Origin: Deltaproteobacteria bacterium
GTDB taxonomy: Bacteria; Desulfobacterota; Desulfobaccia; Desulfobaccales; 0-14-0-80-60-11
Assembly: GCA_030018495.1 (NCBI GenBank)
Contig: JASEFS010000017.1
Location: 38,402-74,849 of the forward strand
DNA: 36,448 nucleotides
Reading direction: 5' to 3'
The notes under the pieces are model-generated. The model saw only the letters and a program-made list of their open reading frames with translations, made no database searches and was not told where the DNA came from. The position numbers and the translations under genes are program-made. This document shows, piece after piece, positions 5,407 through 19,507 of the stretch (the stretch's first letter is position 1; the number at the start of each line of letters is the position of its first letter).

Positions 5407-8400
5407 TTACCCTGGCAAGCGCTGTTGGCCGTCTTTGCTTTCAATGCTGGACCAGAACCTATGCCTCTGCTCCAGGTGTTCCCGGAGAAAGGCCGCGGTG
5501 TGGGAATCCGGGTTCGCGGCCACCTCCGCGGGGCTCCCCCAAGCCACCAGCCGACCTCCCTCCTCTCCGCCTTCCGGTCCCAGGTCGATGAGGCAGTCGG
5601 CCGCGGCCAGCACATCCAAATCATGCTCGATGATGACCACGGTGTCGCCGCGGTCCACCAGGCGTTGGAGCACGGACAAGAGCTTCGCCACATCAGCCAT
5701 GTGCAGGCCCGTAGTGGGCTCATCCAGGATATAAAAGGTCCTCCCTGCGGGCTCCGCGGCAAGTTCTGCGGCCAGCTTGGTGCGCTGCGCCTCGCCCCCG
5801 GAAAGGGTGGGGCTGGGCTGGCCCAGGCGCAGGTAACCGAGGCCGATATCCGCCAGGAATTTCAGGGGGCGGCTCACTTTGGGGAAGACCTCGAACAGAG
5901 CGAGAGCCTCCTCCACCGTCAGGTTGAGCACCTCGGCGATGGACTTGCCTTTGAAGGTCACTGCCAGAGTATCAGGGTTATAACGGCTGCCGCGGCAAGC
6001 TTCGCAGGGGACGTAAACCACGGGCAGGAGCGGCATCTCCACCTTAAGGTGTCCCTGTCCCTGGCAGCGCTCGCAACGGCCCCCGGTTACATTGAAAGAA
6101 AAACGGCCTGCGTTGTAGCCCCGGGCCCGGGCTTCCGGCGTCTGGGCGAACAAGGCCCTGATCGCGGTCATCACCCCCACGTAAGTGGCCGGCACCGACC
6201 TGGGGGTGCGCCCGATGGGGGATTCGTCCACTTCCTTGACGTGCTGGATCTGCTCCCAACCCTGCAAGTCCGCGAGGTAGGGGGGCAGCGGCTGGCGGGC
6301 CAGCCTGGCCTTGAGGGCCCGGAAGATCACCTGCCGGACGAGGGTGGATTTCCCTGCACCGCTCACGCCGGTGACGCAGACCAGCCGCCCCAGGGGAATC
6401 TCTACTGTCAGGTCTTTCAAGTTGTGAAGGCGGGCGCCCGCCACAGTGAGCCGGTGAGCTCCCTCCAGGGGCCTCGGGCTCCTCTCCGGGGCTTGCGCTT
6501 CGCCCCTGAGCCACAAGCCGGTGGCGGATGCGCGGGATCGGGCCACCGCGGCAGGAGGGCCGGCTGCTACAACTCTGCCGCCGTGGGGTCCGGCGCCCGG
6601 CCCCAAATCGATGACATGGTCCGCGGCCCGGATGACGGCGGCCTGGTGCTCCACCACGACCACGGTGTTGCCGTGGCCCCGCAGCCCGGCAAAGGCCTGG
6701 AGCAGCGCCCGCACATCCCGGGGGTGCAGTCCCACGGTGGGTTCATCCAGGACATAGCAGACCCCCCGGAGGTTGGAGGCCAGTTCGGCTCCGATCCGGA
6801 TGCGCTGCGCCTCTCCGGTTGATAGGGTGTTTACGGCCCGGTCCATGGTGAGATAGCCGACTCCCAACTCTATCAGCAGGCGCAGCCGATTCACCAGCTC
6901 CGGGACGATGCGCTGGGTCACCTCCCGACGGGCCGGCCCCAGGGATTGCACCCACTTGAAAGCCTCCTGCAAGGGCAGGCTGGCCACGTCGGCGATATTG
7001 CGCTCTCCGATCCGAAAGGCCAAGGCTTCGGGACGCAACCGGGAACCCCCGCAGGCGGAGCAAATTTCGGGCTCAGCTTCCTCCCCCTCTTCGGCCCAAA
7101 TATAGCCGTATCCCTGGCAGACCGGGCAGGCGCCGAACTTCTGACTCCAGGTAAACAGCCGCGGGTCGGGGGCGGGCAAGGCACGGCCGCAGCGGGGGCA
7201 GGCCAAGCGGGTGGAAAAGAAGACGTCCGCCCGCCCCGGCGTCGCGGCCACCAACGAGCCGTACCCCAGCTCCAGGGCCTTTTCCACCTGAGCCCGGACA
7301 GCTTCCTCGCGGCCGGGCTCGATCCGGATTCGGGTTACCACGGCTTCCACGTCGTGAATCTGGTACCGGTCCAGGTCCGGGGCCTTGGCGGCAGGAAAGA
7401 TTTGCCCATCCAGGCGAACTTCCTTAAACCCCAGCCTGGCGACCCGCTTGATGATCTCCCGATGGTGGCCCTTGCGTTTGCGCACCAGGGGCGCCAGGAT
7501 CGCCACGTCCAGCCCGGCGAACAGTTGGACAAGCCGGGCGGTGATCCCCGCAGCGTCGGCGGCTTCTCCGGACGTGCCGTCCTCAGGACAGTAGGCTGTT
7601 CCCAGAGACGCGAAGAGCAGCCGCAGATAGTGATAAACCTCGGAGGCGGTGCCGCAGGTGGACATGGCCCCGGCCCGGGAGATTTTCTGCTCCAGGGCCA
7701 CGGTGGGGGGAATGCCTTCGATGTGGTCCACTTCCGGCCGGGACAGCGGCCGGATATACTGGCGGGCATAAGCCGGCAGGCAGTCGAGAAACCGGGCCCG
7801 GCCTTCGGCATAAAGCACGTCGAAGGCTAACGTTGATTTGCCGGAGCCGCTCACCCCGGTGACGACCACCAGGCGGTTCCGGGGGATGTCCACGCGGATG
7901 TCGGCCAGATTGTGCTCCCGGGCGCCGGCGATGACAATAGCCCTTTCCCGGTGTATCATGGGGACGTAGGCTTCCGCACCCGGCTCCGCCGCGAGGCTCA
8001 GCGGCCGGCCGGGTTGGCGCAGAACTTGGCCTGTAGGGGTATTGAGTTCAGCAATCACCTCCGGCGGCCCCTCTCCCACGATGCGGCCCCCGGCGGCGCC
8101 GCCTTCCGGACCCAGATCGATGAGCCAATCCGCGGCCCGGGCCACGTCCATGTCGTGCTCCACCATCACCACCGAGTGGCCGGCCTCCACCAGGCGCTGC
8201 AGTGCCGCCATGAGATCGGCCACGTTGGCGGGATGCAACCCCGCGGTGGGCTCATCCAGGATGAACAGGAGGTCCCCGGCCTTCCGGGCTTCGGCCAGGC
8301 GGCGGGCCAGTTTCAGGCGCTGGGCTTCGCCGCCTGAAAGGGTGGGCGCGGGTTGCGACAGCGTCAGATAGCCGAGCCCGATTTCCAGCAGCGGCTGAAG

Positions 8401-10752
8401 CGCCGCGGTCACCCACTCATCATCCGCGAACAGCCTGGCCACCTCTGCGGCCGGCAAACCCAGGACTTCGGCAATGGTATGGCCCCGGCAGCGCACCTGC
8501 AAAACTTCCGGGCGAAAGCGCCGTCCGTCGCAGGCCGGGCACTTGATGTAAACATCGGGGAGAAACTGCAGTTCCACCAGTTCGAAGCCCGAGCCTTTGC
8601 AATAGGGGCAGGCGCCCTCGGCAGTGTTAAAGGAAAAGGCCGAACGGCTCAGGCCTAAAAGCCGGGCCTGGCGGGTCGCGGCAAAGGCCGCCCGCAGCGG
8701 CTCCAAGACCCTGAGATACGTCGCGGCGTTCATGCGGGAGCTGCGGGTCAGGGGCGCCTGGTCCACCAACACCGCTTCCGAAATAAAGCGGGCGCCCTCA
8801 ATACCCCGGCAAGCCCCCGGCTCCATGGCGGGCAGCCCCATTTCCCGCCTCAGGTTGCGGTAGAGGACCTGGTCCACCAGAGTGGATTTCCCCGAGCCGC
8901 TGACTCCGGTGACACAGACCAGGAGCCCCAGCGGAATTTTCACCGACAGATTTTGGAGATTATTTTCCCGAGCCCCGACGACCCGTAAAGCTTTCGCCCC
9001 TGGTTTCCGCCTTTTAGCCGGCGCGGGGATGACCAGCCCTCCCCGGAGATAGGCCGCGGTGGGAGAGCGGCGTTCCATCAGGAGGCCGCTTACCGTCCCT
9101 TCGTGGACTACCTGCCCGCCCGCCTGCCCCGGCCCCGGCCCCAAGTCGATGACCCGGTCCGCGGCGTGGATGATGAGAGGGTCGTTATCCACCACCAGCA
9201 CGGCATTGCCGTGCTGTGCCAGCCGGCGCAGGACTCCGGCCAGCCTGGCTACGTCCCGGGGGTGCAGGCCAACCGAAGGCTCTCCCAGGACATAAAGGGT
9301 GCTGGTAAGGGAGGCCCCCAGGGCGGTGGCCAGAGTCACCCGCTGGGTTTCGCCGCCTGAGAGAGTTCGCGACTGCCGTCCCAGAGAAAGATAGCCAAGC
9401 CCCACATCCAGGAGATAACGCAGCCGCCCCTGAATCTCACCCAACAACAGTTCTGTGGCCCGGTCCCCGGCCGGCGCCTCCCATTGTCGGAAGAAAGGCT
9501 CGACTTCCGAGATGGGCATCTGCTCCAGTTCGGGAAAAGTCCTGCCCCCCAGCCGGAAGAGGAGAGCCTCTGGCTTAAGCCGGCTGCCGCCGCAGGCGGG
9601 ACAGGGCAGATAGCGCCGGTAGCGGGACAGCAGGATGCGGGCCTGCTTCTTGTACCGGCGGCCTTGCAGCCAGTCGAAAAAACCCTTGATGCCGTACCAG
9701 CTGCCCTCGCCTTCCCAGATGCGCTGCCGGACCCCAGGTTCTAGCCGCCGCCAGGGCATCAGTATGGGAAGGCCCTTTCGCCTGGCATAATCCAGCAGGT
9801 CTTCCTGGCATTCGGAAAAGGCGGGCGTCTGGAAGGGTTTGATACAGCCGGCAGCCAGGCTGAGATTCGGGTCGGGAATCACCAGATCGGGGTCGATGTC
9901 AATGGTGCGGCCGAAGCCGTTGCAAGTGGTGCAGGCGCCGATGGGGTTGTTGAAGGAAAACAGGGCCGGAGTAGGATCGTGGTAGTCCAAGTCGCAGCGG
10001 GGGCAATGGAGCTTTTGGCTGAAGCGCAGGGGTTCTGACTCACCCTCGATCCACACTTCCAACTTTCCTGCCCCGAAGCTCGTGGCTGACTCCAAAGAAT
10101 CGACAATCCGTTCCCGGTGGCCGGCGTCAACGGCAATCCGGTCCAGGACGACGGTGATTATGCCGTCCCGGGGCGTCAACAACGCTTCTTCCAGACTCAC
10201 CGGCCTGCCTTCTTCCAGCACCCGGGCAAACCCGGCCTGGCGGAGGATATCCCGGAGGGCCTCGGGGGCAAGGTCGCCTACATGGCGGCTGAAGCATATA
10301 AAGACCCGCCTTGCCGTGAAGTTTCCGACCAGGACTTGGAAAATGGCAGCCGGCGAATGGCGCTGCACCGGCTGCCCGCATTCCCGGCAATGCAGGGTGG
10401 CCGCCCGGGAGAACAGGGGCCGCAGATAATCATCGATGGAGGTCATGGTTCCCACGGTGGAGCGGGAAGTGCGGACCGGGGCCGCCCTTTCGATGGCGAT
10501 GGCCGGCAACACCCCCTCGATGCGCTCGGCCTCAGGCCGGTCCAGCCTTTCCAGGAATTGCCGGGCATAAGGCGAAAAGGTCTCCACGTAGCGGCGGTAA
10601 CCTTCGGCATAAAGCACGTCGAAGGCAAGGGTTGACTTACCGGCCCCGGCCACCCCGGTCACTACGGTCACCGCGCCCACCGGCACGGAGACCGTGATGT
10701 TTTTGAGGTTGTTCTGCCGGGCGCCCTGCACCCGTATGGGGCTATATGGCAT
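5407..10752 (-). CDS. uvrA: Tandem (double-length) UvrA, excinuclease ABC subunit A
   Basis: 1781 residues: two complete UvrA-type modules in one chain, about 1-920 and 930-1781. UvrA is the damage-scanning ABC ATPase of nucleotide excision repair. There are four Walker A motifs: GVAGAGKST (33-41), GVSGSGKST (616-624), GVSGSGKST (966-974) and GVSGAGKST (1462-1470). Zinc modules lie near 250-277, 715-741, 1185-1234 and 1560-1586. The second module has a good UvrB-binding region ([15 protein letters not shown], 1085-1099); in the first that region is divergent. Catalytic motifs are uneven. The first site has Walker [11 protein letters not shown] (Asp to Gly, about 490) and VDND instead of VEHD (521-524). 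The third has signature LSTGE instead of LSGGE (1310-1314). The second and fourth look intact. Similarly long tandem UvrA proteins are known in Chlamydiae and some deltaproteobacteria. A GAGGAG ribosome binding site precedes the ATG; uvrC is upstream. Confidence 0.95.
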
Positions 10753-10766
10753 GGCTCCTCGTCAAT

Positions 10767-10869
10767 TCTCTCGCCAAGGCGCTAAGGCGCAAAGAATCCA
10801 ATTTAATTTTGGTTCCCAAGTTGCTTGGGAACCAAAATTAACTTAGCGCCTTAGCGCCTTTGTGAGAGA
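10767..10869. repeat. Nested palindromic element between uvrC and uvrA
   Basis: Outer imperfect arms (about 10767-10794 and 10842-10869) carry AAGGCGCTAAGGCGC and its complement. Inside lies a perfect 16-base inverted repeat with a 3-base loop (10805-10839; arms AATTTTGGTTCCCAAG and CTTGGGAACCAAAATT). The right outer arm encodes the last residues and stop codon of UvrC. The inner palindrome belongs to the same family as those at 36229-36364. Confidence 0.85.
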
Positions 10870-12708
10870 TTTTTTTTTACGAAAGAATTCATAAACCCGC
10901 TTCGCCAGCTTCGGTCCCAGCCCTTCCACTTTCTCCAATTCCGTGAGGCTGGCCCGCCGCAATTGTTCCAGCGACCCGAAACGGCGCAGCAGCTCGGTTT
11001 TCCGCGCCTGCCCGATGCCTGGGATAAGGTCCAGCTCAGAGCGCAGCCTTTCTTTCCGTCCCAGCTTTTTCTGGTAGCTGATGGCGAAGCGGTGGGCCTC
11101 GTCTCTCAGAAGCACGAGGGTCAAGAGCTCCGGGGAGTCCGGAGGCAGCACCACGGGCTGGTCCATGCCCGGCAGATAGAGGCGTTCCGGGGCCTGGGCC
11201 GGCTCCAGGAGACCGGCGGTTCCGATTTCCCGTTTTTTAGCCAGCGCGACGATTTCCACCCCGGTAACCCCAAGGTCCTCCAAGGCCTGCAACCCGGCCG
11301 AAAGCTGCACCTTGCCGCCGTCCAGCACGATAAGGTCTGGGAGGTCGTTCGTTTCGAGACCTCGCCTTAGCCGGCGGCTCAAGACCTCATACATCGCCCG
11401 ATAGTCGTCGCCCACTATCACCGTCCGGAGGCGATAGCGGCGGTAGCGGGCCTTGTCCAACCGGCCTTTGGTCATGGCCGCCTTGGAGGCCACGATGGCA
11501 TCGCCCTGGAAATGCGAAACATCGAAGCACTCCATCCGGTGTGGGGCCTTCTGGAGATGGAGCTTTTCGGCCAGAGCGGCCAACACCTCCGGGTCCTTTT
11601 CTTCACGCGGCCGGCTCTGCTCGAGCGCCTGACTAGCATTGCGGGCCGCCATCTTGACCAACTCGTAGGCAATTCCGCCCCGTGGAACCACGAACTGCGC
11701 CTTGGAGGCCTTCCTCTCTCTCAGAAAATCGGCCAAAGACCTCATCCCCTCAATTTCCAGGGGCAGCAGCACTTTGTCCGGGAGGAGATGGCCCTGGCTG
11801 TAATAAAGATTGAGGAAAGAGGCCAGCACCTCCCGCTCCGGGAACCCCTGGCCCGGAAAAATAAAAGCGCGGCCGCCGGCGACCCGGCCCCCCCGGACAA
11901 ACAAGAGGTAGACGGCCAGATCATTGCCTTCCCGGTGCAGTCCCAGCACATCCCAGTTATAGTTGCCGCCCAGGGTCACCTTCTGGCGCTCCAAGGTGCG
12001 TTCCACCGCCTGGATGCGGTCCCGCAGCCGCGCCGCCTCTTCAAACTTCATCGCGTCCGAGGCCTCCTGCATGCGCCGCTTAAGCGATTCCAGCAACTCG
12101 GGTTTCCGGCCTTCCAAGAAGGCGATGGCGTCTTCCACGTGGCGCCGGTACTCCTCTTTGGGGATGTCAAACACCGAGGGCGCCGGAAACCGGCTGATCT
12201 GACAGAGCAAACAAGGCCGCTGGTGGCTGCGGGGATCGTGGTCGGCGCAGGTCCTAAGCTGGAAGTGGCGGTTAATGACCCTGAGCGTCTCCCGGAGGGC
12301 CCGGGCCGCAGGGTAGGGCCCGAAATACCGGGCCCCGTCCGGCGCTACCTGCCGCGTCACCTCCAGGCGGGGATAGTCTTTGCCGGGATCAAGCTTGAGG
12401 TAGACGAAATTACCCCCTTCCCGGAGCTTTATATTAAAGGGGGGCTTGTGCTGCTTGATCAGCTCGTTTTCCAGGATGAGGGCCTCTTTCTCAGTGCCCA
12501 CCACCATGGCCTCGATATCGGCCAGCATGCTCTCCAGGAAAGGAATCTGGACGCGTTCGTCCCGGCCGCCCTCGAAATAGGAGCGCACCCGTTTTTGCAG
12601 GTTCTTCGCCTTGCCCACGTAAAGGACCCGCCCGTCCTCGCCTTTCATCACATAGACGCCGGGCTCCTCCGGCAGGGCGGCGATTTTGTCGCGAAGCTTG
12701 TCCCTCAT
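10843..12708 (-). CDS. uvrC: UvrABC system protein C (excinuclease subunit)
   Basis: About 621 residues; dual-incision nuclease of nucleotide excision repair acting with UvrA/UvrB. The GIY-YIG nuclease domain is N-terminal (PGVYVMKGEDGRVLYVGKA, with Arg in KNLQKRVRSYF). A UVR domain (QEASDAMKFEEAARLRDRI) follows around residue 215. The RNase H-like domain includes MECFDVSHFQGD and LDGGKVQLSAGLQAL. Tandem helix-hairpin-helix motifs (LIPGIGQARKTELLRRFG, VEGLGPKLAKRVYEFF) lie at the end. The ATG at 12706-12708 is preferred; an in-frame TTG three codons upstream is possible. The final residues SLTKALRR and the stop are encoded by a repeat arm, directly after a run of nine As (10870-10878, minus strand). 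It probably heads a uvrC-uvrA operon. Confidence 0.95.
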   Translation of the reverse strand: MRDKLRDKIAALPEEPGVYVMKGEDGRVLYVGKAKNLQKRVRSYFEGGRDERVQIPFLESMLADIEAMVVGTEKEALILENELIKQHKPPFNIKLREGGNFVYLKLDPGKDYPRLEVTRQVAPDGARYFGPYPAARALRETLRVINRHFQLRTCADHDPRSHQRPCLLCQISRFPAPSVFDIPKEEYRRHVEDAIAFLEGRKPELLESLKRRMQEASDAMKFEEAARLRDRIQAVERTLERQKVTLGGNYNWDVLGLHREGNDLAVYLLFVRGGRVAGGRAFIFPGQGFPEREVLASFLNLYYSQGHLLPDKVLLPLEIEGMRSLADFLRERKASKAQFVVPRGGIAYELVKMAARNASQALEQSRPREEKDPEVLAALAEKLHLQKAPHRMECFDVSHFQGDAIVASKAAMTKGRLDKARYRRYRLRTVIVGDDYRAMYEVLSRRLRRGLETNDLPDLIVLDGGKVQLSAGLQALEDLGVTGVEIVALAKKREIGTAGLLEPAQAPERLYLPGMDQPVVLPPDSPELLTLVLLRDEAHRFAISYQKKLGRKERLRSELDLIPGIGQARKTELLRRFGSLEQLRRASLTELEKVEGLGPKLAKRVYEFFRKKKSLTKALRR

Positions 12709-12947
12709 GCCGTCCAAGTTTCAAATCTACTCTTAAAGATAATTCCGAGATTGCAGAAAGGTAAGGGTATTGGCTGGGCATCGGGATTATTTATGCCGGT
12801 CGAACTCTCTGAGGAAACCAGGCGAGCGATTATGCCGGACTTGGTGCAAGGAATTAAACAAATAAAACCAGCCGCCGACGTAAAGGATTTGCCGGTCCTC
12901 CCCCTTCGTCAGGAAAGAGGCGGCAATAGCGGGGCGCAGTCTTTTAT

Positions 12948-13718: not shown

Positions 13719-14576
13719 ATGGGCGCCTTGGTTCTCTATGCACTGCTGTTGGCCGCCGGCCTCCTGCCCCTGATCGCCGGGATGCTGCTGGCCGGGGCCT
13801 CAGGCTACCCTGTCAGCGCCGCGGTTCTTGTTCTGGGGGTGGCGGCCATGGTTTGCCTGATGGTGGCGGCCCTGGCCGCGAGGGAAGCCTTCGCCTACCA
13901 GGTGGGGCGCTGGCCCAGTTGGGAAAGGCAGCCCGCGGGGGGCTGGGACCGGGTGGCCCATATCCTTTTGGGGGCGGCCGGACTGCTGGGGGTGATGCTG
14001 CAATTCGGCCTGAATACCGGCGACCTGACCATCCCCCTGGGCGGCGTCGGCGCGCTGGCCGGCTACTTCTGCTTTGCGCCGCCCCTGCAGTGGTACAAGC
14101 GGGGCTGGTTCGAGGCCGCGGGCGCCCTGTGCTTCGGCCTGCTGCCGGTGCTGGCGGGCTATTATCTGCAGACCGGGCACCTGATCTCGGAAGTTTTCGT
14201 CTATGGCACGCCGCTGTCGCTGGCGGCCTTTAACGTGTTTTTGGTGCACGGCATTCCCGAGGCGGCCCGCAAGTCCCAGCCGGCCCGCTTCAGCCTGGCC
14301 GAACGCCTCAGCCCCCCGGCCACGGGCCTGCTCTTTACCGTGGTCAACGTCCTCACCATCGCCTGCCTGGTTTTCTACCTCTTTTTTCCGGCCGGGGCCC
14401 TGCCGGCGCGCTGGGCCTTGTGGGTCCTCCTGATCCTGGCCGTGATCAACCAGGAGCTGGTCAAACGCCGGGCCTATTATGACGAGGGCCGCATCACCCT
14501 GCTCTGCCGCCTCACCCTGGCCCTGCACCTGGCCATGGGCCTGATCTTCACCTGGGGCCTGTGGCAAAGGGTGTGA
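13719..14576 (+). CDS. UbiA/MenA-like membrane protein lacking the Asp-rich motifs
   Basis: 285 residues, about eight hydrophobic segments. The middle resembles MenA-type members of the UbiA prenyltransferase superfamily: PPLQWYKRGWFEA (121-133, compare the MenA PLKYRGLGE region) and LLPVLAGYYLQTG (141-153). A loop follows at 171-186, FNVFLVHGIPEAARKS, at the position where active enzymes have NNxRDxxxD. The N-terminal N-D-x-x-D motif is also absent; the corresponding place reads AAREAFAYQVGR. Superfamily enzymes need both motifs to bind the Mg-diphosphate of the prenyl donor, so classical catalysis is doubtful. It may be a non-catalytic homologue or have a changed substrate. The start ATG lacks a clear ribosome binding site. 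It is monocistronic by appearance, and high GC fits the host. Confidence 0.6.
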   Translation: MGALVLYALLLAAGLLPLIAGMLLAGASGYPVSAAVLVLGVAAMVCLMVAALAAREAFAYQVGRWPSWERQPAGGWDRVAHILLGAAGLLGVMLQFGLNTGDLTIPLGGVGALAGYFCFAPPLQWYKRGWFEAAGALCFGLLPVLAGYYLQTGHLISEVFVYGTPLSLAAFNVFLVHGIPEAARKSQPARFSLAERLSPPATGLLFTVVNVLTIACLVFYLFFPAGALPARWALWVLLILAVINQELVKRRAYYDEGRITLLCRLTLALHLAMGLIFTWGLWQRV

Positions 14577-14706
14577 GGGGTCTCAAAATAGTCTCGTTAC
14601 TTTATGCTCTAAACATCCCAGCTTTTATTAAAGAGCATTTAGAAATGTGACATTTGTTATCTTGCGCCTAACATTCGAATAACGTTTATCATTCATTCTA
14701 TTTTTC

Positions 14707-17700
14707 TTATTCATCTATTTCGTTGTATTCGCGCTTCCGCAGTTCCAACCTCTCTTCGCTTCTGCGCTGTTCGGCGGCAATTCGTCGATCCAGGCTTAAC
14801 AGAAGGCGTCTCGCGAAGGATTGAACCTGTTCTCTTGGATCTTCGAGCCACGGCTCAATCTCGGTTTTCTTTCGTTTATAGGCATCTACAAATCCGAACT
14901 CACCGGTAACTACGCCCGTAGAGCCCAGGGCTGCTTCGATTTCGTTCAGCAGCGGGTCTTCTGGTGGAAGAAGAGCCACGATTTCTTTACAGAGACTATA
15001 TATAAAAACTTGACCATCGTCGTAAGTACGCAGAATCTTAGCCACGAACTCTATATCAGCTTTGTCCCGACTTTCAATGAGGTTTTGTAGGATTAGTTCG
15101 AACTCAGGGGGAAAATTTGGAAAGACGATAGAGAGCAATTGGCCGCCTCGATATTGGAACATCAGCTTGTCTTCCTCAAACCAGGATCGGGACTTTTCCA
15201 ATAAGTATTCAGGAACCTTTGCAAGTTGGTCATGCAAGCGGTAAAATTTGAAAGGTATAGCTTCATATCTGATCTTATCGCCAACCATTGATTTCTGATC
15301 GACTTTCAACCTGGAGTCGAAAAAGTCAACCACCTTAGTCGGCCAAGAGGCTGCAATAGACGCTAAAATATCTTCGACACGGTGGTCTATTTGAGGATGC
15401 CGGACTAAACTTGCAAGTACCTGATCTACCTGTTCCGACTTCAAACCTTCGAGCAGTGATTTTTCTTTACGAGACGGCCATAAGGCGTTTATCCATCTGC
15501 TATCGCCTTTCTCTGTTAGGTAGCCGAGGGCAGGCAGGAATATCCTATCAATCAGCCCCCCTTCGACGTCTCCATGACGCAATGCGCTTGTGCTAACTGC
15601 ATTAAGAACAGCAATATCATCACCGACTTCGATTGCGCCTCTCAGAGCTTCCTCTAGCAAATCTGCGTCGAAATCAGCTGCGAACCCTTCATACCAGATG
15701 ATTTGGGACAGGTACTGGCGCGTTTCGACCCAATGCCTGATCTTCTCTTGTGCGATGTCCCCTTTTCCTCCGCTTTCGAGTCCAGATAACATTGCGGGTA
15801 GGAAGTTTGCGAGCCTATCATCCAGCCGGTCTAGATAAGCGATTAGTATGTTAGGCTTCGACCGCCCAAGCTCTTTCAGAAAGCGCCCAAAGCTTGGGAA
15901 CGTGGCGAGATCGTTCGACTCCGTCTGAGCGCAACGCAACAACCTTGCAAACCATTCGTTGGCGTTTTCTTCGCTGACTTCGTCGACAAGTTTTTTTATC
16001 TGATGGTTACGGTATGCTTCCTGCGCCTCCCAATCGAAATTCGGGTCATCCCATGCTGGTGGAAAGACAGATTCAAATCCCACCAAAACTTTATAAATAA
16101 TAAATTCGTGGTTACTGTTTGTAATGTCGCGAAAATCGAGAATGTGCCTAATCAGCCGCTGGTGGGAAATTGTGATTTCCGGATCACCTGTGATATCGCT
16201 CGGCATATCGAGGCTTCTTCGATATAGCAAAAGTAGCTCATCTTCGAGCGCTTGAAGGAGTTCATAGCTCAGGTCGTTCGCAACTTCTTTGTAAAACTCG
16301 ACAATATTAGCCTTATCGTTCAATACGATTTTGAACAGTTCATTTGAATAATTGCCACGGTGAGGAAATCTCATTGCGGTTGATAATGTATGTATAACTT
16401 CACGCCGTTCAGCGTCTGTTTTGGCATCCCTAAAAAGATCCTTAAGAATCTCAATAGCATTGGAACGCGTATTGATCAGCATCTCGCTGGGGACAACCGT
16501 GCCTGTGTGAATTGTGAACGTTTTGTATGTGCTTGAAGTTCCCTCAACTTCAGGCGCCAGCACTTGCCCGAGAATCTTCAATACAACGGGTTTAATGAAA
16601 ATGAGTTCTTCAATATTAAGACAGCGGATACGCCCCACTAATAAATGCTGAACTAAGGGCCCTACTTGTTTCCAGACATCGAGATTATTCTTGGAAAGGT
16701 GTTCTGCCGATAGGATCAAGCGTTTACGCTCTTCATCGCTCTCAGCGCCAGAGAAAAGCTCACATATGGCATTGAAAGTCGCTTCAACATCTAGATAACG
16801 CAATCGATCGAGAATATCGGCCGCGACACCAACGACCTGCTCAACAGTGAAGCCAGGATGCGCGCCAAAAGGTGTCTCGATAGGTCGCGTCGGCGTCTTG
16901 CGCGCTTGTTTTACTGCCGTCAAAACAGCCGAGCGGATTTCATGCTGAACGCTCTGTAAGTCGTCATAATAAGGAAGTACATATGTAGAAAATCTTTCCA
17001 TCAGATCATGTAGTTCATTATTGTCCTTACTATTCGCAAACGCTGTTAATGCGTCTTGATCAAATAACTCCTTACCTATTGACAGACGTTCAAAATCGGT
17101 AACAACTTTCTGGAATTCGTAGCCAGCAGGCAGCAGATAGTCACGCATTATTTTTTCCATACGCTGTTCGATCTGCTGCATCAATCTACCACCGAAACCT
17201 TTTAGCTTTGGCTTTTTATATATAGTGTCATGCGCCATCTCTGACCACGCATGATTTAACGTTGTTTGAATTTGGACTTCGCACCACAACCCACGAAAGC
17301 GAGCATACTCGGGAAGCGCAATACGTTGCTCGTTAAAGCGTACTACAAAGTTGTGTCCACTGAAGAGTTCAGTGGCACTACTCGTATCTTGGCTTGGGTG
17401 GTGGATTTTAGTACGGTCCCAATCAATTTCGAAGTTATCCCTAACAATGCCAGATAATAAAAACTGAGAAACGTCGGAATTGGTATAAAAAACAAGACGG
17501 CAGCCTGCCAAATCCTTTACAACTTCTTCAATCTTTTCAGTTTCAAGGACCCCGGCTTCTTTAAGCTTCTTCCTAAGAGATTCTGGGTCCTTGGCGCGAT
17601 GTTTTATCTGCTGCAATCCTAGTCGTAATCGGCGGTTGGAGTGCGCCTCTATTGCTGTTTTCAAGACCATTCCAACAGTATCCGCAAGGTCAGCGTAATC

Positions 17701-17736
17701 GCTGCGCCTCTTTTTCTCATACATCTCGAAGTTCAT
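14707..17736 (-). CDS. RelA/SpoT-type nucleotidyltransferase domain fused to large helical C-terminus
   Basis: 1009 residues. Residues about 40-200 match the RelA/SpoT (p)ppGpp-synthetase-like domain. Visible motifs are KHRAKDPESLRKKL (45-58), VKDLAGCRLVFY (73-84), ELFSGHNFVVRF (123-134, in place of the usual GYxSxH), CEVQIQT (152-158) and HAWSEMAHDTIYK (162-174). No HD hydrolase domain is present. The remaining 800 residues are predominantly helical with no motif I recognise, resembling HEAT-like scaffolds, and end in a charged coiled coil (RIAAEQRRSEERLELRKREY). Base composition is foreign: a sampled line has 27/60 G+C, versus 43/60 in the neighbouring membrane gene. An ATTGGAG ribosome binding site precedes the ATG. 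It is a single gene with no partner antitoxin beside it. Known single-domain relatives act as alarmone synthetases or tRNA-pyrophosphorylating toxins; which, if either, applies is unknown. Confidence 0.8.
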   Translation of the reverse strand: MNFEMYEKKRRSDYADLADTVGMVLKTAIEAHSNRRLRLGLQQIKHRAKDPESLRKKLKEAGVLETEKIEEVVKDLAGCRLVFYTNSDVSQFLLSGIVRDNFEIDWDRTKIHHPSQDTSSATELFSGHNFVVRFNEQRIALPEYARFRGLWCEVQIQTTLNHAWSEMAHDTIYKKPKLKGFGGRLMQQIEQRMEKIMRDYLLPAGYEFQKVVTDFERLSIGKELFDQDALTAFANSKDNNELHDLMERFSTYVLPYYDDLQSVQHEIRSAVLTAVKQARKTPTRPIETPFGAHPGFTVEQVVGVAADILDRLRYLDVEATFNAICELFSGAESDEERKRLILSAEHLSKNNLDVWKQVGPLVQHLLVGRIRCLNIEELIFIKPVVLKILGQVLAPEVEGTSSTYKTFTIHTGTVVPSEMLINTRSNAIEILKDLFRDAKTDAERREVIHTLSTAMRFPHRGNYSNELFKIVLNDKANIVEFYKEVANDLSYELLQALEDELLLLYRRSLDMPSDITGDPEITISHQRLIRHILDFRDITNSNHEFIIYKVLVGFESVFPPAWDDPNFDWEAQEAYRNHQIKKLVDEVSEENANEWFARLLRCAQTESNDLATFPSFGRFLKELGRSKPNILIAYLDRLDDRLANFLPAMLSGLESGGKGDIAQEKIRHWVETRQYLSQIIWYEGFAADFDADLLEEALRGAIEVGDDIAVLNAVSTSALRHGDVEGGLIDRIFLPALGYLTEKGDSRWINALWPSRKEKSLLEGLKSEQVDQVLASLVRHPQIDHRVEDILASIAASWPTKVVDFFDSRLKVDQKSMVGDKIRYEAIPFKFYRLHDQLAKVPEYLLEKSRSWFEEDKLMFQYRGGQLLSIVFPNFPPEFELILQNLIESRDKADIEFVAKILRTYDDGQVFIYSLCKEIVALLPPEDPLLNEIEAALGSTGVVTGEFGFVDAYKRKKTEIEPWLEDPREQVQSFARRLLLSLDRRIAAEQRRSEERLELRKREYNEIDE

Positions 17737-17951
17737 AACGGCTCCAATATCAAAACCCTGCTGTCATATTTGTAGAAATGATAATTTAGTTTCACATTGC
17801 CACAAAGAGAATCGAGCTGTCAAGGAGTGACCTGTGAGCCTGAAATACTTGCCAGGCTGTCACTGAAAATCCTCCCGCTATCCATTCAGCCTTAATCCCG
17901 CGGCATTTCCAGGAGGCTTGTATTTCCCTCATGCCTGGGAGATAATGAGGC

Positions 17952-18230
17952 ATGAATCGGTGGCGCAGCGGGTGGCTGGGAGGTTGGGGAGCCAGGGTGC
18001 TGGCCGTGGTCCTCATGGCCGCGCTGCTGCCCGCGTGCCAGACCGCCGCGGCGCAGATCTACATTCCCCTGGCGTACGGCCTGACCGGGCTTTGCATTGC
18101 GCTGTTGGTGTCGCCCACCCCCACCGCGGCCCTGGTGGGCCTCCTGGTGGGGGCTTTGCTGGGCGCGGCGCTTTACAACAATTCCCTCAAGCGACACTTT
18201 TTGGAACGCCACCGCGTGGACCAGAAGTGA
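17952..18230 (+). CDS. Small lipoprotein with glycine-rich membrane segment, unknown
   Basis: 92 residues with a lipoprotein signal: basic start, hydrophobic core and lipobox LLPAC with Cys29. After a short stretch comes a second long hydrophobic region (about 36-75) rich in Gly and Ala (LVGLLVGALLGAALYNN), reminiscent of glycine-zipper segments, then a basic tail. It is probably anchored in the periplasmic face of a membrane. No family is recognised. GAGG and GGGAG stretches lie just upstream of the ATG. A 7-base GGTTTTC/T tandem repeat begins immediately after its stop. Confidence 0.6.
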   Translation: MNRWRSGWLGGWGARVLAVVLMAALLPACQTAAAQIYIPLAYGLTGLCIALLVSPTPTAALVGLLVGALLGAALYNNSLKRHFLERHRVDQK

Positions 18231-18233
18231 AGA

Positions 18234-18287
18234 CGGTTTTCGGTTTTCGGTTTTTGGTTTTTGGTTTTTGGTTTTTGGTTTTTGGAA
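18234..18287. repeat. GGTTTTN heptad tandem repeat
   Basis: About seven units of a 7-base repeat, GGTTTTC then GGTTTTT, in the lipoprotein-birA gap. Further copies of the family lie at 18391-18424, 21040-21073, 27659-27692, 28071-28145 and 32048-32076. Confidence 0.85.
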
Positions 18288-18390
18288 TTTTGTTTTAATT
18301 GAGAATTTCAGGCGTATAAAAATCCCTCATGGGTTCTGTTGATTCCATTGATAAAAAAAAAGGCAATTCCTGGCAGGAACTGAAAATAAA

Positions 18391-18424
18391 GACGGTTTTC
18401 GGTTTTCAGTTTTCAGTTTTCAGA
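18391..18424. repeat. GGTTTTC/GTTTTCA heptad repeat (second copy before birA)
   Basis: Four to five heptads introduced by the same AAAGACGG or AAGACGG lead-in as the tract at 18234. Sequence after each tract is also similar (CCCTCATGGGTTC against CCCTTCATGGGTTCC), so the two tracts are parts of an old tandem duplication of about 150 bases. Confidence 0.75.
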
Positions 18425-18466
18425 ATATTGGCTTAATCAACAATTTCATGTCCAGATAATCCCTTC

Positions 18467-19507
18467 ATGGGTTCCTCTGATTCAATAAATAGAAATAAAA
18501 ACAATCCCTTACAGGAACCGGAAAGCGGCCTGGGTGCGGTGCTGAATGCTTTGAGGGGCGCGGCGGGGCCGGTGTCCGGAGAAAAGCTGGCCGCCGCGGC
18601 GGGGGTGAGCCGGGCCGCGGTGTGGAAGCGCATCAACCGGCTCAAGGCCCTGGGCTATGACATCGCCGGGGAGCCCCGCAAAGGCTACCGTCTGGAAGGC
18701 GCGCCGGACAAGCTGCTGCCCGAAGAGATTCTCTGGGGGCTGAACACCCGCAAATGGCGCGGGCCCATCCATCACTTCGAAACCATCGCCTCCACCAACG
18801 ACCTGGCCAAGGAACTGGGGGCCAAGGGCGCGCCGGAAGGCACCCTGGTGGTGGCGGAAGAGCAGCAGGCCGGGCGGGGCCGCCTGGGGCGGCAGTGGGA
18901 CTCCCCGCGCGGGGTCGGCCTTTATGCAACTCTTTTGCTGCGGCCGGAGCTCCCGCCCCTGGACATGCCCCAGATCACCCTGACCACCGCGGTGGCCGCG
19001 GTCCGGGCCTTGCAGCGGGCCGCAGGGCTCAAAGCAGCCATCAAGTGGCCCAATGATATTCTGGTGGACGGCAAAAAGGCGGGGGGCATCCTCACGGAAA
19101 TGGAGACCGAGAGCGACCGCATCCGCTACCTGGCCCTGGGCCTGGGCCTGAACGTCAACAACCCCGCTTTTCCGCCGGAGCTGGTCCATTCCGCCACCTC
19201 CCTATACCTGGCGGCGGGGCGGACTTTTTCCCGGGTGGCCGTTCTTCAAGCCTGGCTGGAGGAATTGGAAAACCTGTATGAAAGCTTTCTGGCCCGCGGT
19301 TTTCCCCAAATCCTGGCGGAATGGAAGCGTCACGCGGTGACGCTGGGCCGCCGGGTGCAGGTGCGCCAGGGGCCGAATCTCATCCGCGGCAGGGCGGTGG
19401 AGGTGGACAGGGACGGGGCGTTGCTGGTGGAGCAGGAGGGGGGATTGACAGTCCGGGTGATTTCCGGGGAAATCGCCCCGGACCCAGAGACAGGGCCGGG
19501 GCTCTAA
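18467..19507 (+). CDS. birA: Biotin-[acetyl-CoA-carboxylase] ligase / biotin operon repressor
   Basis: Up to 346 residues. An N-terminal winged helix (about 23-75: GPVSGEKLAAAAGVSRAAVWKRINRL) indicates a DNA-binding repressor type. The central ligase domain carries the biotinyl-AMP motif GRGRLGRQWDSP (about 136-147) and KWPNDILVDGKKAGGIL. A C-terminal SH3-like domain follows. It activates biotin and attaches it to biotin-dependent carboxylases. The start is uncertain: the ATG at 18467 adds about 24 residues (MGSSDSINRNKNNPLQEPES) encoded in a repeat-derived duplication and has no clear ribosome binding site. The GTG at 18539 would give the normal family start. No biotin genes are adjacent. 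Confidence 0.93.
   Translation: MGSSDSINRNKNNPLQEPESGLGAVLNALRGAAGPVSGEKLAAAAGVSRAAVWKRINRLKALGYDIAGEPRKGYRLEGAPDKLLPEEILWGLNTRKWRGPIHHFETIASTNDLAKELGAKGAPEGTLVVAEEQQAGRGRLGRQWDSPRGVGLYATLLLRPELPPLDMPQITLTTAVAAVRALQRAAGLKAAIKWPNDILVDGKKAGGILTEMETESDRIRYLALGLGLNVNNPAFPPELVHSATSLYLAAGRTFSRVAVLQAWLEELENLYESFLARGFPQILAEWKRHAVTLGRRVQVRQGPNLIRGRAVEVDRDGALLVEQEGGLTVRVISGEIAPDPETGPGL

Follow-up and report, generated by a model that had tools for sequence, protein, structure and literature searches.

The Locus: A Single Foreign Gene among Housekeeping Genes

The window (the whole stretch of DNA analysed here, i.e., 36,448 nt of contig JASEFS010000017.1 of a Deltaproteobacteria bacterium, assembly GCA_030018495.1) carries on its minus strand a gene joining a RelA/SpoT-type pyrophosphotransferase domain to a long helical solenoid (Table 1). 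The gene is real: it runs for 1009 codons from an ATG and is preceded by a GGAG Shine-Dalgarno sequence. The N-terminus of its product, MNFEMYE, agrees in the alignment with the start of the family, MNFDDYE. The original prediction had read a RelA/SpoT-type domain in this open reading frame, and Pfam bears it out, RelA_SpoT (PF04607) matching residues 46-176 (E 4e-10, 40.3 bits, for a cut-off of 27). No convincing promoter- or terminator-like sites were found near the gene. The host genome also encodes a separate 722-aa RSH.

Table 1. Features of the gene and of its flanks, in window coordinates.
Feature	Position	Strand	Basis
Window gene: RelA/SpoT-type pyrophosphotransferase domain and HEAT/ARM solenoid, 1009 aa	14707..17736	-	ORF, Pfam, AlphaFold2
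SAS-type SYNTH (nucleotidyltransferase) domain, residues 1-205	17122..17736	-	PF04607, structure match to RelP 6ewz, residue map
Acceptor "G-loop", residues 114-130	17347..17397	-	Alignment with SaRelP; pLDDT<50 at residues 114-123
Predicted HEAT/ARM-like solenoid, residues 217-1009	14710..17088	-	pLDDT mostly >90; structure matches
Motif SNDxATFPxFxxF, residues 607-619	15880..15918	-	Family conservation
Motif TGVVxGExG, residues about 939-948, near the C-terminus	14893..14922	-	Family conservation
Shine-Dalgarno GGAG, 5 bases before the ATG	17742..17745	-	Read off the sequence
Inter-flank stretch containing the inserted gene	14577..17951	.	Comparison with relatives
Left flank: gene for a multi-pass membrane protein that looks UbiA-like by eye, place kept in relatives	13719..14576	+	
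Right flank: small protein gene, then birA (18467-19507), place kept in relatives	17952..18230	+	

The GC content of the gene is 45.8%, against 57.2% across the window. Its composition is foreign, as had been predicted, though its neighbours lie at 57-65% GC and not at the 70% then given for them. It is the sole gene between its two flanks. At this locus it is missing from all ten same-family genomes compared, one of them of the same genus, with the small-protein gene and birA in place; the left membrane-protein gene lies directly beside the right flank in nine of them, the tenth contig ending first. The matched flank ends are spaced by 86-360 bp in nine relatives without the gene, and none of 59 relatives was found to hold another full-length copy. 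The closest relative of its solenoid (45% identity) belongs to a betaproteobacterium, Sulfuritalea. A search of the insertion ends for direct or inverted repeats returned just 8-bp chance matches. The copy sits by itself in the chromosome amid housekeeping genes, outside any defence island and without a surrounding mobile element. As judged from these comparisons, the gene is a horizontally acquired single-gene insertion.

Elsewhere in the window, G/T-rich short repeats (GGTTTTC, CAGTTTTC) occupy positions 18235-18425, between the small gene and birA, and similar G/T-rich runs occur near 5860-5900 in a relative of the same genus (L069). A UvrA-like ORF of 1781 aa, apparently made of two tandem UvrA copies, lies on the minus strand at 5407-10752, just downstream of uvrC (10843-12717).

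The Synthetase Domain: Fold and Active Site

Residues 2-217 of the window protein have the fold of a SAS-type (p)ppGpp synthetase. Since importins, spliceosome proteins and other generic solenoids dominated a first Foldseek list, a separate model of the enzyme domain was made and used for the search. Folded alone, the domain matches the RelP structure with AMPCPP and GTP in place (6ewz) at Z 17.2 and an rmsd of 2.8 over 191 residues; in the whole AlphaFold2 model, residues 2-203 match RelP with AMPCPP and GTP at Z 12.4 and an rmsd of 3.7 over 173 residues. The domain reaches Z 15-17 with RelP and RelQ, CapRel (7ztb) matches residues 1-207 with Z 12.0, and FaRel2 gives Z 6-7. The predicted structure was checked for a nucleotidyltransferase pocket, which is present. 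Pfam finds RelA_SpoT alone in the protein, i.e., no hydrolase, TGS, ACT or NTPase domain; the first three had already been predicted to be lacking. The feature set of a long RSH (HD hydrolase, TGS, ACT) is thus missing, and in the model the C-terminus is all-helical.

The ATP- and Mg-binding residues of SaRelP named in PMC5794853 served as reference for a residue map. In the alignment, R78, K80, S84 and K88 of SaRelP correspond to R47, K49, S53 and K57 of the window protein, and D107, R112, E174 and H190 to D75, R80, E153 and H169, SaRelP R91 being replaced by E60. Across the alignment of RelA-type proteins, R47, K49, D75, R80, E153 and H169 never vary (16/16), and the hallmarks of SYNTH (nucleotidyltransferase fold, RxK, Asp and Glu metal ligands, His) are met. 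Because the donor-site residues are conserved both with SaRelP and among RelA-type proteins, the protein has probably kept its ability to bind ATP and its metal-dependent catalysis, as far as can be read from the alignment.

The EVQIRT motif reads EVQIQT, as first noticed, and does so family-wide, the Q being nearly invariant across RelA-type proteins. On the acceptor side, the G-loop is altered: Tyr151 of SaRelP becomes F125 and the loop His becomes N129. The claim that GYxSxH reads FSGHNF stands for the window protein and its subclade (L021, L024 and L055, and similarly the Sphingobium protein), to which the F/N pattern is limited; it fails for most homologues outside this subclade, which retain the Tyr and the His. 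The G-loop Tyr stacks on the acceptor base and is typical of active SYNTH members, not of the fold; this feature is not met here. P146, which orders the G-loop of RelP (PMC5794853), is retained as P114. In FaRel2, Y128F compromises catalysis (PMC11782079), and in CapRel the G-loop tyrosine is essential, Y155A abolishing protection (PMC9712102). Given the effect of Y128F in FaRel2, the natural Tyr-to-Phe change suggests a different acceptor or, failing that, compensation within the loop. It could also mean an altered or weak enzyme, which is a point against the defence role proposed below. In the window protein, the G-loop is modelled poorly (Table 1).

A HEAT/ARM-Like Solenoid without a Described Family

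The huge helical C-terminus of the original prediction is supported by the AlphaFold2 model, which was built with 38 sequences and has a mean pLDDT of 87.7. Residues ~217-1009 are predicted to be a HEAT/ARM-like solenoid, with just short hairpins in the model. In the structure search, it matches importins, CAND1, SF3B1, PP2A-A and designed armadillo repeats; such Z values are common among solenoids, so that they define the fold class only. The solenoid belongs to no Pfam or NCBIfam family, its profile finds no match in the PDB, and a phmmer search of the PDB sequences with the full-length protein was unproductive. Two motifs stand out in the family alignment: SNDxATFPxFxxF is near-invariant in RelA-type and two-gene-type proteins (see below), and TGVVxGExG is kept across effector types and can still be made out in one STAND protein.

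Relatives of the Window Protein

Scanning 84,980 species with a profile led to 36 loci, which local profiles sort into RelA-type proteins and solenoid proteins of ~800 aa with a preceding gene. Relatives with both modules number 20 (15 on genome contigs, 2 on plasmids and 3 on IMG/VR contigs). Searching plasmids by tblastn gave two full-length relatives, from Rhizobium rhizogenes and Sphingobium, and also, unexpectedly, solenoid-only proteins. Viral contigs returned nothing when scanned with single proteins, but relatives were recovered with alignments; no full-length relatives were found in phage GenBank records. In a phylum-wide sample of 345 genomes, the solenoid turned up in just two others, once as a two-gene type and once as a STAND type.

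A maximum-likelihood tree was built from the solenoid. In it, 17 of the RelA-type proteins group with a single truncated contig (support 100/100), and the two-gene types form their sister group. A Poribacteria RelA-type protein stands apart on a long branch. Some RelA-type relatives vary in build. Two of them have an extra C-terminal domain (L008, 6653-10585; L053, 9035-12907), which in the Rhizobium protein is a poly-gamma-glutamate hydrolase domain (PF05908, E 9e-45). In Bradyrhizobium retamae (L030), one of the 15 relatives on genome contigs, the RelA domain (8929-10038) and the solenoid (10031-12076) lie in two overlapping ORFs, by a natural split or a frameshift.

The Same Solenoid with Other Partners

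In the two-gene units, the first gene encodes ~230-370 aa and lies just ahead of the solenoid gene, within a few bases. Pfam assigns PIN_12 to many of these first genes and DUF4365 to one, the N-termini of others remaining unassigned. Their last ~100 residues form a common adaptor. An adaptor profile that was built solely from PIN-type first genes also picks up the DUF4365 type (5e-14), as well as two further types without PIN (2.5e-16 and 6e-10); its match to L037 is weak. The N-termini of these two further types look PD-(D/E)XK-like by eye, without Pfam confirmation; the effectors other than PIN are probably nucleases as well. Two of the two-gene loci (L032 and L054) are identical, on contigs labelled Bacteroidota and Smithella, and a binning error in one of them is probable.

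A STAND NTPase encoded on an Aulosira plasmid also ends in this solenoid, and an HTH-nuclease-STAND protein from Desulfobacterota has part of it at its C-terminus. With hhalign, it aligns to two STAND proteins at 99.4% over 602 columns and at 95.6% over 242. One locus (L013, 5428-9438, minus strand) encodes 1336 aa in which an HTH at the N-terminus is combined with a probable nuclease and a STAND NTPase, the C-terminus being distantly related to the window solenoid. Across the family, sequence comparison thus indicates that effectors have been exchanged against one solenoid.

Genomic Neighbourhoods and Mobility

We scanned 98 neighbours of RelA-type loci against PADLOC. No background rate for random loci is available, and this evidence is by example. 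The matches include DSR2, SIR2, HerA, GajB/DRT-helicase-like, SAVED/CBASS-type, MADS-type and Fic-like genes, those of MADS type being perhaps type I restriction methylases. DSR2 (Dsr2, 1.7e-125) adjoins the Rhizobium copy, SIR2 (3.7e-110) and HerA (1e-136) adjoin the Aestuariivirga copy, a GajB/DRT-helicase-like gene (1.5e-74) lies near the Cohaesibacter copy, and a Fic-like gene adjoins a Burkholderiales copy. The IMG/VR contigs that hold three RelA-type copies also encode an integrase or a primase, an integrase lies next to one copy, and a phage tail gene shares a contig with one two-gene copy. Homologues are hence not constantly in housekeeping surroundings, which had been named as a possible refutation. 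The absence of a visible antitoxin gene, noted from the start, extends to the family: no conserved partner or antitoxin gene was found among RelA-type loci, the recurring genes being just dnaE-like and efflux genes.

Comparison with Known Systems

CapRel provides the tested precedent of one protein combining a SAS-type enzyme and a sensor (PMC9712102). As in CapRel, a single polypeptide here carries an N-terminal SAS-type pyrophosphotransferase and a C-terminal regulatory or sensing part. However, CapRel ends in a compact pseudo-zinc-finger domain that shares homology with antitoxins (PMC9712102), the window protein in a solenoid of ~790 residues with unrelated relatives. The window protein is not CapRel, its sensor being unrelated, and its CapRel-like way of working is inferred. 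It shares the fold and the ATP/Mg residues of RelP and RelQ, but these are small free-standing enzymes, without its large solenoid, its R-to-Q change in EVQIRT and its altered G-loop. Of the STAND NTPases (a class with Avs and bacterial NLR-like immune proteins), two, the Aulosira and the HTH-nuclease-STAND protein, have the homologous C-terminal solenoid, whereas the window protein lacks an NTPase domain and its enzyme is fused straight to the solenoid. The feature of toxSAS toxin-antitoxin systems, an adjacent cognate antitoxin gene, is not met by the single gene between the flanks.

The system had been proposed as undescribed, and for the solenoid this is borne out; a likeness to a PADLOC candidate, PDC-S33, is confined to the synthetase half. 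PDC-S33 (E 8e-8) and phrog_9640 (E 1e-16) are related to the synthetase domain, but these families of 349-365 positions match the synthetase part only. Relatives of this domain, RelA-type nucleotidyltransferases without the solenoid, were also seen as cargo genes in the filamentous Vibrio phage PE002A (L088, 6571-7581) and on a 3.5-kb Klebsiella plasmid (L089, 436-1572). A likeness to Olokun is limited to weak PADLOC matches to OloA in a few two-gene-type relatives (E 3e-7 and 1e-5), the window protein itself having none. DSR2 (SIR2 and a helical sensor) is likewise a single protein with an enzyme and a long helical part, and one copy adjoins a relative; homology between its helical part and the solenoid was not detected (hhalign 0.2%). 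DefensePredictor includes PIN systems other than the two-gene solenoid family. We found no description of a RelA/SpoT-HEAT defence protein or of the two-gene family in the literature, in which our coverage of subscription journals and bioRxiv was limited, so that this absence is not proof.

Proposed Mechanism and Alternatives

We consider it likely that the window protein is a self-contained, one-protein abortive-infection system against phages. Directly supported are both domains, the intact ATP/Mg residues, the horizontal insertion of a single gene, a sensor common to other effectors, and the proximity of some relatives to defence genes. By inference, the C-terminal HEAT solenoid (~217-1009) would keep the N-terminal enzyme inactive and would recognise a sign of infection, which would probably be a phage protein; sensing would free the pyrophosphotransferase, and growth arrest would follow. 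The defence role itself is also inferred; the separate RSH of the host is in its favour, the place of the window copy outside any defence island against it. The long helical part had been guessed to be the phage sensor, and this guess is strengthened: since the same solenoid is wired elsewhere to nucleases and to NLR-like ATPases, it is most likely an interchangeable infection sensor. It may be a general module, which relatives would couple to PIN or other effectors through the adaptor, or carry behind a STAND NTPase.

The acceptor substrate, another inferred point, is nearly undecided. To a nucleotide acceptor we give an even chance; (p)ppGpp or (p)ppApp would then be made, and the alarmone burst together with ATP and GTP depletion, not tRNA modification, would be toxic. 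The fold is nearest to RelP and RelQ, ahead of CapRel and FaRel2, and the proline ordering the G-loop is kept. However, overall fold likeness does not decide the acceptor, and in the subclade of the window protein the guanosine-binding loop lacks both its Tyr and its His. This altered loop is compatible with a non-GTP acceptor, and tRNA 3'-CCA ends, the acceptor of CapRel, FaRel2 and PhRel2, remain a serious candidate, somewhat short of an even chance. Characterised fused SAS-type defence proteins act in this way (PMC9712102; PMC11559606), and CapRel does match residues 1-207; yet no tRNA-binding patch could be identified in the window protein, and the structural match is weaker for FaRel2, which acts on tRNA. 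Because the fold is RelP-like, we lean slightly to the nucleotide.

Two further readings compete with this one. The protein could be a fused toxin-antitoxin that serves mainly to stabilise mobile elements, the solenoid being the antitoxin, in keeping with the copies on plasmids and integrative elements and with the lack of a separate antitoxin gene. We hold this unlikely: the window copy has no mobile element around it, and an "antitoxin" of ~790 residues common to nuclease systems and STAND NTPases resembles a receptor. SAS enzymes usually act in the stringent response, and the window copy lies among housekeeping genes, so that a regulator sensing nutrients or stress through the solenoid, without a part in defence, could be imagined. 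This is very doubtful in view of the patchy distribution (two other solenoid carriers in 345 genomes, no other full-length copy in 59 relatives), the foreign composition and the exchange with nuclease effectors. The abortive-infection system stays our preferred interpretation.

Significance

It is possible, though on balance we would not yet assume it, that proteins with this solenoid make up a family of modular immune receptors not described before, NLR-like but without an NTPase, wired directly to an alarmone-type pyrophosphotransferase or, through the adaptor, to exchangeable effectors (PIN, DUF4365 and others), and that the subclade of the window protein, by its altered acceptor loop, makes a product new to its enzyme family. 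If our interpretation is right, SAS-type enzymes in immunity would extend past the CapRel architecture, a natural Tyr-to-Phe variant of the acceptor loop would inform the choice between GTP, ATP and tRNA as acceptor, and one sensor fold would serve three wirings, i.e., direct fusion, a two-gene effector-adaptor unit and a STAND NTPase. A trigger mapped once would then be transferable between these wirings, which would allow a direct test of how one receptor drives quite different effectors.
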